Below, one piece after another: positions 46,147-64,000 of a stretch of 64,000 nucleotides of DNA (position 1 is the stretch's first letter; each line of letters starts with the position of its first letter). The stretch is from Methylocystis sp. H62 (GTDB taxonomy: Bacteria; Pseudomonadota; Alphaproteobacteria; Rhizobiales; Beijerinckiaceae). The translations under genes and the position numbers were made by a program. The notes below the pieces were generated by a model. That model was not told where the DNA came from. It made no database searches and saw only the letters and a program-made list of their open reading frames with translations. Where the stretch lies: positions 1 to 64,000 of the forward strand of contig NZ_JADNQZ010000046.1 of NCBI RefSeq assembly GCF_015709515.1, given 5' to 3'.

Positions 46147-46631
46147 GCCTCGCCTCGAAGACGCTCTATCGCGTAATAGCTGCGCTGCTCGTCCTCATCG
46201 CGGGCGTGCTCCTCTTTGGTCACGACGCGGCGGCGGCCGAGCCCCTGCTGAAAGGCGCCGCCCAAGCCGTCGCTGGCGTCGTCTGCGGCTTCACCATTGG
46301 CGTCGTGGCGTCGCTTCTGGGCGTCGCGGGAGGGGAATTGCTGATCCCGACGCTGACGCTCTTGTTCGGCGCGGACATAAAGCTCGCCGGCAGCCTGTCA
46401 TTGGCGGTGAGTCTGCCCACAATGCTCGCGGGCTTTGCCCGTTACAGCCGTGACCGCAGCTTCTTGACCCTTGGGCGGAACCGAACCTTCGCGCTCGTGA
46501 TGGCGGCCGGGTCGATCGTCGGGACTTTTGTTGGCGGCCAGTTGCTCGCCATCATCCCGAGCGCCCTTTTGCTTCCCGCCCTCGCCGCGATCCTGCTCGT
46601 CTCCGCCGTGAAGGTCTGGCATCATGCATAG
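46141..46631 (+). pseudogene. 3' half of a TSUP transporter gene (exact duplicate)
   Basis: Bases 46142-46620 appear identical to 56637-57115. The encoded part starts in WATRLASKTLYRV-equivalent sequence and covers FTIGVVASLLGVAGGELLIP and GSIVGTFVGGQLLAIIPSAL. It lacks the N-terminal half, and the last residues are altered (KVWHHA instead of KVWRQA). The lack of divergence implies recent copying. Confidence 0.85.
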
Positions 46632-47556: not shown

Positions 47557-47913
47557 TGTCGATTTCGGTTTCAATATGACATTGGTACCCTATGATTTTT
47601 CAAAACGTTACGATCAATCAGTCTCAACTCAATTTCTGTTTCATTTGAAACTGGAGCCAAAATTTTTCGGTTTCAACTGAGATTGATCGACCGGTCGATC
47701 GACCGCACGATGTCGGCATGCTGATGGTTTCAATCACGACCACAACGATCCGCTTACAGCACGGGAAATCCGGGATTCAACGAAAATTCCTCTCCGCCTG
47801 GTATCGTCAAAAATGCTGTTTCATTTGAGACTGGAATCGAAAGCGGAGTTTCAGATGAAACGGAAAAAGCGACACCAAATACCCCCGGTCTCACATTGAA
47901 ACCGAAATCGACA
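47557..47913. mobile_element. 357-bp mini-element with TGT...ACA ends and repeated internal motifs
   Basis: The ends are inverted repeats: TGTCGATTTCGGTTTCAAT at the left and, in reverse complement, the same 19 bases at the right. Inside lie further copies of the core: TTCGGTTTCAACTGAGATTG, GTTTCATTTGAAACTGG, GTCTCAACTC and, inverted, CGTTTCATCTGAAACTC with CAGTCTCAAATGAAACAG. A palindrome-like GATCGACCGGTCGATCGACC follows the left set. Multiple ordered terminal repeats and TGT ends are typical of TnsB/TniA/Mu-type transposons. There is no gene inside. The flanking 5-mers (AGAGC and GCCTT) do not match. A related end is at 63729. Confidence 0.7.
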
Positions 47914-56213: not shown

Positions 56214-57125
56214 TTGCTTCGCCGCGAAGCGAAACCCTACCATTCCGCCCATGTCGCGATCAACGGCTCTGTCGGCTATCCCGCCGCTGCATTAGGCAGG
56301 AAATGCGCTCTCACGACGCTCGAATTGACTCGGATCAAGAACCTAAGCCGGAGCAATGGCGGCGCTTTCGTTGGAGGGGCCGTCATTGGCGCGCTCGGCG
56401 GGCTGATCGGCCTCGGCGGGGCGGAGTTTCGCCTGCCTCTGCTGATCGGGGCGTTCCGATTCGCGGCCCTCGAAGCCGTCATTCTCAATAAGGCCATGAG
56501 CCTCGTCGTCGTGGCCTCGGCATTGCCGTTCCGGGCGCGGACCGTGCTGTTCGACATCATCGCCGCCAATTGGAGCGTTATCGCCAATCTGTTGGCCGGG
56601 AGTCTTGTCGGCGCCTGGCTCGGCGCGGGCTGGGCGACACGCCTCGCCTCGAAGACGCTCTATCGCGTAATAGCTGCGCTGCTCGTCCTCATCGCGGGCG
56701 TGCTCCTCTTTGGTCACGACGCGGCGGCGGCCGAGCCCCTGCTGAAAGGCGCCGCCCAAGCCGTCGCTGGCGTCGTCTGCGGCTTCACCATTGGCGTCGT
56801 GGCGTCGCTTCTGGGCGTCGCGGGAGGGGAATTGCTGATCCCGACGCTGACGCTCTTGTTCGGCGCGGACATAAAGCTCGCCGGCAGCCTGTCATTGGCG
56901 GTGAGTCTGCCCACAATGCTCGCGGGCTTTGCCCGTTACAGCCGTGACCGCAGCTTCTTGACCCTTGGGCGGAACCGAACCTTCGCGCTCGTGATGGCGG
57001 CCGGGTCGATCGTCGGGACTTTTGTTGGCGGCCAGTTGCTCGCCATCATCCCGAGCGCCCTTTTGCTTCCCGCCCTCGCCGCGATCCTGCTCGTCTCCGC
57101 CGTGAAGGTCTGGCGGCAGGCCTGA
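56214..57125 (+). CDS. TSUP (TauE/SafE) family transporter
   Basis: 303 aa from 56214; an ATG further in may be the true start, since the first ~45 residues look unlike a TSUP protein. Two repeated halves begin GGAVIGALGGLIGLGGAEFR and GFTIGVVASLLGVAGGELLI, typical of the family. About eight TM helices. TSUP proteins export or import sulfite, sulfoacetate or other small anions; the substrate here is unknown. The 3' half has an exact duplicate at 46.1-46.6 kb. Convergent with the antiporter gene. Confidence 0.85.
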   Translation: MLRREAKPYHSAHVAINGSVGYPAAALGRKCALTTLELTRIKNLSRSNGGAFVGGAVIGALGGLIGLGGAEFRLPLLIGAFRFAALEAVILNKAMSLVVVASALPFRARTVLFDIIAANWSVIANLLAGSLVGAWLGAGWATRLASKTLYRVIAALLVLIAGVLLFGHDAAAAEPLLKGAAQAVAGVVCGFTIGVVASLLGVAGGELLIPTLTLLFGADIKLAGSLSLAVSLPTMLAGFARYSRDRSFLTLGRNRTFALVMAAGSIVGTFVGGQLLAIIPSALLLPALAAILLVSAVKVWRQA

Positions 57126-63388: not shown

Positions 63389-63728
63389 TCATTCGTCTTC
63401 GAGCTGCTTGATGTCGGGGAGATCGCGCAGCGTCGCGAGGCCGAAGACCTCGAGAACCTTCTTGGTCGTCACATAGGCGAATGGTGCGCCTGACTCCGGC
63501 GCGCGCAAGGTGTCATCGATCAGGCCATGGCGCTTGAGCGCGCCAATGACGTCGCGGCTGATCTCTTTCCCGGCGAGCCGCGAAAGTTCGGCGCGGGTAC
63601 CGGGTTGCAGATAGGCTATCGCGGTCACCGCCAAAATCTCGGTCGGGGTCAATTCGGGCGCGTCGGCATGGCGCTGATCGCCGCCGCCCGCCGCGCAGAT
63701 CGCCGGCGCAAAGCGCGGCTTATAATAG
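63389..63728 (-). pseudogene. scpB: C-terminal part of ScpB, cut by a transposon end
   Basis: Reads ELTPTEILAVTAIAYLQPGT, RAELSRLAGKEISRDVIGAL and FAYVTTKKVLEVFGLATLRD, ending IKQLEDE. This is the second winged helix of the condensin subunit ScpB as found in Rhizobiales-type bacteria. The frame is open to 63728, where TGTCGATTTCGG of the transposon end begins. The N-terminal half is absent, so chromosome-segregation function must come from another copy. Confidence 0.75.
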
Positions 63729-64000
63729 TGTCGATTTCGGTTTCAAGATGAGACTCACGATCTTTTGAAAAACAGGGGCTTAAAAAAACCAGTCTCAGTC
63801 CGATTTCGGTTTCAATTGAGACTATATCGGCACATTTTCGGTTTCAATTGAGATTGATCGACCGGTCGATCAACCTTACTATAACGACATGGCTGGTCTG
63901 GTCGACGATTCAAACGATCCGCGTTGGCAAGAGACTGAACGCCGAGACCAATTTCATCACGAACTGTTAAAGGCAACTGGATGGAAAGCGACGCGAGACG
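63729..64000 (+). mobile_element. Left end of a TGT-ended, multi-repeat transposon (continues beyond the window)
   Basis: Starts TGTCGATTTCGGTTTCAAG. Within 130 bp there are three ordered copies of the core: TTTCGGTTTCAAGATGAGAC, TTTCGGTTTCAATTGAGACT and TTTCGGTTTCAATTGAGATT, followed by GATCGACCGGTCGATCAACC. The arrangement matches the left half of the 357-bp mini-element at 47557. A gene begins directly after the last repeat. It interrupts scpB. Confidence 0.75.
63889..64000 (+). CDS. Start of a transposon-borne gene, cut by the window edge
   Basis: An ATG follows the terminal repeats of the transposon end by about 10 bp. It starts MAGLVDDSNDPRWQETERRD and continues QFHHELLKATGWKATRD to the window end. 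The position right inside the transposon end suggests a transposition or regulatory gene; the acidic, aromatic N-terminus with KATGWKATRD could lead into a helix-turn-helix. No identification is possible from 37 residues. Confidence 0.5.
   Translation, partial: MAGLVDDSNDPRWQETERRDQFHHELLKATGWKATRD

Follow-up and report, generated by a model that had tools for sequence, protein, structure and literature searches.

Transposon end and neighbouring genes in the window

The window analyzed here comprises the first 64,000 nucleotides of contig C46 (NZ_JADNQZ010000046.1) of Methylocystis sp. H62. Near its right edge, at 63729–63754 on the plus strand, lies the left terminus of a TniA-TniB element, consisting of the 18-bp end TGTCGATTTCGGTTTCAA (exact at 63729–63746) and a first repeat. 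This terminus was delimited by alignment to an intact element in another genome of the genus (G023), with which the first 289 bp share 92.7% DNA identity. Scanning with the repeat core located a second and a third subterminal repeat at 63804–63822 and 63836–63854, both on the plus strand and both putative TniA binding sites. Just upstream of tniA, a 16-bp palindrome, GATCGACCGGTCGATC, occupies 63856–63871 and may act as an operator or an additional protein site; the palindrome of the G023 element differs from it by one base. Shuffled versions of the window contained on average 0.04 matches for the subterminal repeats and 0.00 for the palindrome. The original prediction of an end at 63729 with three spaced repeats and a palindrome is therefore borne out (63729–63871), as shuffling yields almost none of these features, and a gene expected to start just inside the end indeed has an open reading frame (ORF) beginning at 63889.

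The same 18-bp sequence recurs at 47557 (plus strand) and 47896 (minus strand), where it forms the ends of a 357-bp mini-element (47557–47913). With its matching inverted ends, repeats and identical palindrome, the mini-element is a non-autonomous relative of the TniA-TniB element. A scan of the window for the end motif, allowing up to 3 mismatches, returned 5 matches against 0.08 expected, and exact 18-bp ends number 3 in the window and 7 genome-wide. Elsewhere in the window, a 141-aa ORF (46206–46631) represents a truncated second copy, covering most of the C-terminal half of a 303-aa ORF at 56214–57125.

On the outer side of the transposon end, the 3′ part of an scpB paralogue lies on the minus strand at 63395–63721 (tblastn match 63395–63721; PF04079 match C46:63410–63661). 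It is a pseudogene whose 5′ part is missing, its frame corresponding to the C-terminal part of the ScpB protein. C46 also carries an intact paralogue, at a distance of 48 kb (C46:111607–111990), with which the pseudogene shares 85% identity. The scpB frame had been thought to break precisely at the transposon end; this proved incorrect, as homology to the paralogues stops at 63721, so that 7 bp (ATAATAG, 63722–63728) intervene before the first base of the element. PF04079 matched 13 times in the genome, a count in which split pieces and the two copies of a duplicated stretch figure separately. The scpB gene on C51 is open and presumably chromosomal, and the window copy is a 5′-truncated paralogue; an interrupted chromosomal scpB was rejected because of the open copy on C51. 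The ScpB matches outside C51 resemble the ScpB type of named Methylocystis plasmids, with an adjoining DUF1403 gene, and in this genome DUF1403 was seen at 4 of 9 non-chromosomal ScpB loci (C29, C43, C47 and C48), several of the others being cut by contig ends. Judged by its likeness to the plasmid ScpB copies, the window scpB is probably a plasmid-type paralogue. The 54 kb of C46 from 58494 to the contig end (112485) recur in inverted orientation within contig C40 (99.963% identity), including the junction, which reflects either a second replicon copy or an assembly effect; given this near-identical copy, the window locus is counted once.

A chimeric reading frame and the search for a right end

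The ORF that starts inside the transposon end is a chimera of 301 aa (63889–64794 of C46, plus strand; window part 63889–64000), in which ~42 tniA codons are followed in frame by the C-terminal part of a Tn3-family tnpA. Residues 1–49 are 78% identical to TniA, and residues 38–276 match the Tn3 transposase DDE domain (E 4e-95); the Tn3 part corresponds to positions 713–954 of 954 in NF033527, with a score below the cut-off. At the DNA level, similarity to the intact element extends as far as 64015 and similarity to Tn3 copies in the same genome spans 64005–64823, an overlap of 11 bp. Neither a full-length tnpA nor Tn3-type ends were found at the boundary, the C-terminal portion of tnpA being joined to tniA at 64005–64015, and an intact Tn3 element was rejected on account of this partial tnpA.

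An inverted copy of the end was expected downstream of position 64000, and no credible one was found on the rest of the contig. The remaining 48.7 kb contained no right end in searches allowing up to 1 and up to 2 mismatches across the whole genome and up to 5 across 60001–100000. An inverted match with 3 mismatches at C46:65067 was rejected as a right end, because an ISL3-type transposase ORF starts there and the repeat found next to true right ends is missing. No tniB match was obtained on C46 at E ≤ 1e-60. As these scans revealed no right end on the remaining contig, the window copy is a relic, and its sequence suggests that it would no longer be able to move by itself. The left end had also been provisionally assigned to a full-length relative of the mini-element: such a relative does exist, intact, in G023, but the window copy is not full-length, as it passes from ~42 tniA codons into a Tn3 fragment.

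The region past the chimera is a mosaic of mobile-element remnants. Approximately 90 bp at C46:64915–65004 (L008:4915–5004) are common to the stretch preceding tniA in the genome's other tni elements, and this block is followed by an ISL3-type transposase gene. A mosaic like that of the window locus is present in another genome (L209, G025:C116), where a tniA fragment starting near residue 57 directly adjoins a split ScpB gene.

Intact two-gene relatives

In G023, an intact element of 2768 bp with the same ends as the window copy occurs twice, with near-identical flanks. The ends are identical at 18 of 18 bp, with 2 mismatches within 20 bp, and the repeat core occurs in four copies, two near each end, besides the two termini. 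The element carries tniA and tniB only, with no tniQ, resolvase or cargo. TniA (538 aa) contains rve (PF00665), HTH_Tnp_Mu_2 and Mu-transpos_C (PF09299) domains, and TniB (293 aa) matches PF05621 at 3.6e-55 (TniB/AAA_22), with no IstB family listed. The best solved-structure matches of the two proteins are the TnsB and TnsC chains of Tn6677, and what we take to be the D..D(35)E, Walker A and Walker B motifs are visible by eye. In terms of the Tn5053 family, the G023 element thus has the DDE transposase TniA and the ATPase TniB, of which the window retains ~42 tniA codons. A TnsA endonuclease is absent, there being two genes only between the ends; the tniR resolvase and res are likewise absent, the 2768 bp being filled by tniA and tniB; and the ~110 bp that separate tniB from the right end are too short for tniQ. 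TnsB/TnsC/TniQ-like genes had been considered; the intact relative has a DDE transposase of the TnsB/TniA kind and an AAA+ ATPase of the TnsC/TniB kind, but TniQ is found in none of the intact relatives.

We use A-type for the TniQ-less TniA-TniB lineages and B-type for a group of their tniABQ relatives. TniA proteins 63–69% identical to that of G023 were found in G035, G500, G625, Methylovirgula, two Martelella species and Methylocystis rosea (degraded); in all 8 A-type lineages including G023, one of them degraded, TniQ was found neither by annotation nor by similarity. Six bounded A-type copies measure 2768, 2768, 2784, 2767, 2767 and 2766 bp, the last being that of G625, whose first bases are TGA. 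One Martelella copy is also without an annotated tniB, and plasmids labelled Dysgonomonadaceae zrk40 carry an apparent Martelella copy. For TniA relatives below 50% identity, the annotation of 8 alphaproteobacterial plasmid records was inspected and all 8 list a tniQ, and the ORF after tniB in the elements termed MJCb-type is TniQ according to Pfam. Outside the clade, G032:C172, in which tniB has a stop, showed no TniQ in the 6 kb fetched. No firm boundaries were obtained for the Martelella elements, MJC1b or two MJCa copies, and the ends assigned to G032c depend on a match with 7 mismatches in 18. A family-level TniA search of 298 genomes (E ≤ 1e-170) identified 5 genomes; no A-type TniA was obtained from 397 genomes of the order (E ≤ 1e-160) or 385 of the class (E ≤ 1e-170), empty answers that show nothing on their own.

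Placement of the TniQ-less clade

The A-type elements resemble the Tn5053/Tn402 family (tniABQ-res-tniR) in their TniA/TniB homologues, TGTC..GACA ends, subterminal repeats and lack of TnsA, and TniA is 40.8% identical to that of an annotated tniABQR element. They differ from it in lacking TniQ, tniR/res and cargo, in the absence of 5-bp duplications from the 11 copies inspected, and in their ends of 18 bp, as opposed to the 25 bp given for the family in the accessible part of PMC7765201. The two stretches of R751 that were fetched for Tn402 contained no annotated tni genes. The nearest TniA proteins (~45–50%) belong to alphaproteobacterial tniABQ elements of Agrobacterium, Sinorhizobium, Sulfitobacter and Methylocystis, which share the tniA-tniB order and similar ends; these elements, however, have tniQ and measure ~3.6–3.9 kb where bounded, whereas the A-type measures 2.77 kb without it. 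An element of a Staphylococcus plasmid, which we take to be Tn552, also has a Mu-type DDE transposase and no annotated TniQ, but its identity is ~25% and its record has recombinase and resistance genes annotated nearby.

In a tree that included Tn552, the A-type clade (support 91/96) fell outside all TniQ-bearing elements, a position in which the absence of TniQ could be ancestral; Tn552 is a distant outgroup, and the tree programme warns of long branches. Without Tn552, the A-type clade (100/100) is sister (99/98) to the tniABQ elements, which suggests that TniQ was lost. With the root depending on the outgroup, we lean towards a single loss of TniQ. On these comparisons, the A-type elements form a TniQ-lacking clade close to the alphaproteobacterial tniABQ elements. 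As their intact members lack TniQ, they are not strict members of the Tn7 or Tn5053 family; an undescribed Tn7- or Tn5053-like group had been suggested in case such genes were present, and no description of this clade was found in the accessible parts of the literature searched. TniQ-lacking Tn7-like transposons in general are on record in the accessible part of PMC8649781, where tnsD/tniQ is reported in 73–97% of Tn7-like transposons per clade, so an element without TniQ is not unheard of.

Target duplications

Exact junction repeats were tested in 28 bounded elements (9 A-type, 10 B-type, 6 MJCa-type and 3 MJCb-type). No target duplication was detected in the 9 A-type elements by this test, nor by eye in G500 and G625 (11 bounded copies), and the 10 B-type elements likewise showed none. 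Repeats of 5–6 bp flank all 3 bounded MJCb-type elements (5 were fetched), and one of the 6 MJCa-type elements has an exact direct repeat of 31 bp (L182:4828–8594, NZ_CP107560.1), compared with the usual 5 bp. Because B-type copies also lack duplications, the pattern is not tied to the loss of TniQ and says nothing about TniQ. Copy-in products sorted by homologous recombination would explain bounded copies without target duplications, and the decay of old copies could also be a source of the missing repeats. In their accessible parts, PMC8649781 and PMC9527255 discuss resolvase-less copy-in for such elements, and PMC7765201 suggests repeat loss after insertion for Tn5053 relatives. When a reciprocal cointegrate flank pair was sought in G008, short flanks were suggestive with no clean 5-bp match, and no pair is claimed.

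The tyrosine recombinase–DUF1403–ScpB module

A module recurs in the genus: a gene for a tyrosine recombinase (PF00589) and a DUF1403 gene point away from each other, and scpB follows the latter. The module loci are L133 (C43:1–6000), L182, L198–L204, L207, L214–L216, L237, L238 and L239–L268. In a sample of 30 of the 61 listed recombinase loci, 17 have a DUF1403 match 121–802 bp across the intergenic stretch with no tniA match, 9 hold a tniABQ-type tniA in the intergenic region, and 4 are of other kinds or too short. In all 14 MJCa-/MJCb-type elements fetched, it is the tniA side that faces the recombinase; in one case a further element is interposed (two in tandem on one plasmid). The DUF1403 side was seen in 9. 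The distance from the element to the recombinase match is ~12 to ~410 bp where the end is known. The TniA proteins of MJCa and MJCb are ~45% identical, while their recombinases reach 69–82% identity to that of MJC1, so the recombinase appears to be one component of the target. Alternatively, the MJCa/MJCb elements may have been inherited with their plasmids and not repeatedly inserted. According to the accessible part of PMC8649781, some Tn5053-clade transposons carry their own tyrosine resolvase; unlike in that case, the module recombinase lies outside the MJCa/MJCb element ends. At the 10 B-type loci, some of which are on short contigs, no recombinase was found.

DUF1403 or ScpB is present in the outer flank of 3 of 24 A-type loci (flanks of up to 1.2 kb, some much shorter). 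The G023 element lies 63 bp before residue 55 of DUF1403, and hence possibly in the same intergenic stretch as its TniQ-bearing cousins; a mini-element in G013 lies ~150 bp from ScpB, at the DUF1403–ScpB border; and the third locus is the window copy in scpB. Another end, located in G002, is accompanied by an ScpB fragment on its inner side. At 3 of 24 loci and without a formal null, this proximity is suggestive only, both as a preference for the module and as a parallel to the plasmid res-site insertion of the Tn5053 family. The accessible parts of the literature searched contained no description of a recombinase–DUF1403–ScpB target and no mention of DUF1403.

Interpretation and alternatives

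We consider it probable that the feature at 63729 is the decapitated left end of a two-gene, TniQ-independent copy-in TniA-TniB transposon, truncated by fusion to a Tn3-family tail. In such an element, the DDE transposase TniA would bind the terminal repeats, and TniB would assemble on target DNA and activate TniA without a TniQ adaptor, much like IstB or MuB. The lack of TnsA and of a resolvase would imply copy-in insertion with unresolved products, leaving cointegrates, deletions and inversions that could be sorted by homologous recombination only. A TniA-TniB element would have come to lie in the plasmid-type scpB paralogue, after which recombination or deletion through the 11 bp of shared sequence may have put the Tn3-family tail in place of the remainder of tniA, of tniB and of the right end.

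Among the alternatives, the use of TniQ supplied in trans by tniABQ elements in the same cell fares best, although we regard it as unlikely. G000 and G023 each contain tniABQ copies alongside A-type copies or ends. A borrowed selector would also agree with the position of 3 of the 24 A-type loci at the module that the TniQ-bearing cousins use, the G023 copy possibly in the very same intergenic stretch. However, the window copy (in ScpB) and the G013 mini-element (at the DUF1403–ScpB border) lie away from the cousins' site, and the co-resident TniB proteins in G000 and G023 are only 45–47% identical.

That the tniA–tnpA chimera is a functional fusion gene under selection, as its in-frame join and 301 open codons might suggest, is highly improbable: the product has no TniA catalytic core and lacks roughly the first three quarters of the Tn3 transposase, the junction occurs in this genome only at the near-identical C46/C40 pair, and chance alone gives an in-frame join in one of three cases. 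An IS21-type origin is a shade less credible still. IS21 (istA-istB) has two genes, a DDE transposase and an AAA+ ATPase, a plan that the A-type elements share, and its TGT..ACA ends with multiple terminal repeats, as commonly understood, are similar in architecture; TniA also gives a weak match to NF033546 (IS21), at E 3e-8 and far below the cut-off. The ATPase, however, belongs to the TniB family by its PF05621 match, no IstB family being listed for it, and TniA has a Mu-transpos_C domain and TnsB chains as its best solved structures. Least credible of all is an intact Tn7- or Tn5053-like transposon that starts at this left end and carries TnsB/TnsC/TniQ and cargo past 64000: the end motif and the tniA-like start of the ORF fit, but tniA stops after ~42 codons, and the searches of C46 gave neither a tniB match at E ≤ 1e-60 nor, within the mismatch limits used, a credible right end.

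Beyond the decapitated TniA-TniB element itself, we tentatively entertain a broader history, for which we would put the chances at somewhat below even. A TniQ-bearing Tn5053-like lineage may have lost its selector once and survived as a 2.77-kb TniA-TniB core with mini-element satellites; its cousins would hunt the tyrosine-recombinase site of a plasmid module, a counterpart of res-site hunting, and the scpB insertion in the window would be a stray of the same attraction.

For the window locus itself the outcome is modest, a relic; of greater interest are the intact relatives without TniQ and the module occupied by their cousins. In Tn7, Tn5053 and CRISPR-associated transposons (CAST), TniQ couples the TnsC/TnsB machinery to the target. 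If the broader history is true, the A-type elements would be a naturally occurring relative of the CAST and Tn7 machinery that does without a selector, and the recurrence of the cousins beside a tyrosine recombinase, if it reflects targeting, would extend res-site hunting to a second recombinase class. A TniQ-less clade beside relatives that keep TniQ lets one ask what TniQ does and how targets are chosen without it.
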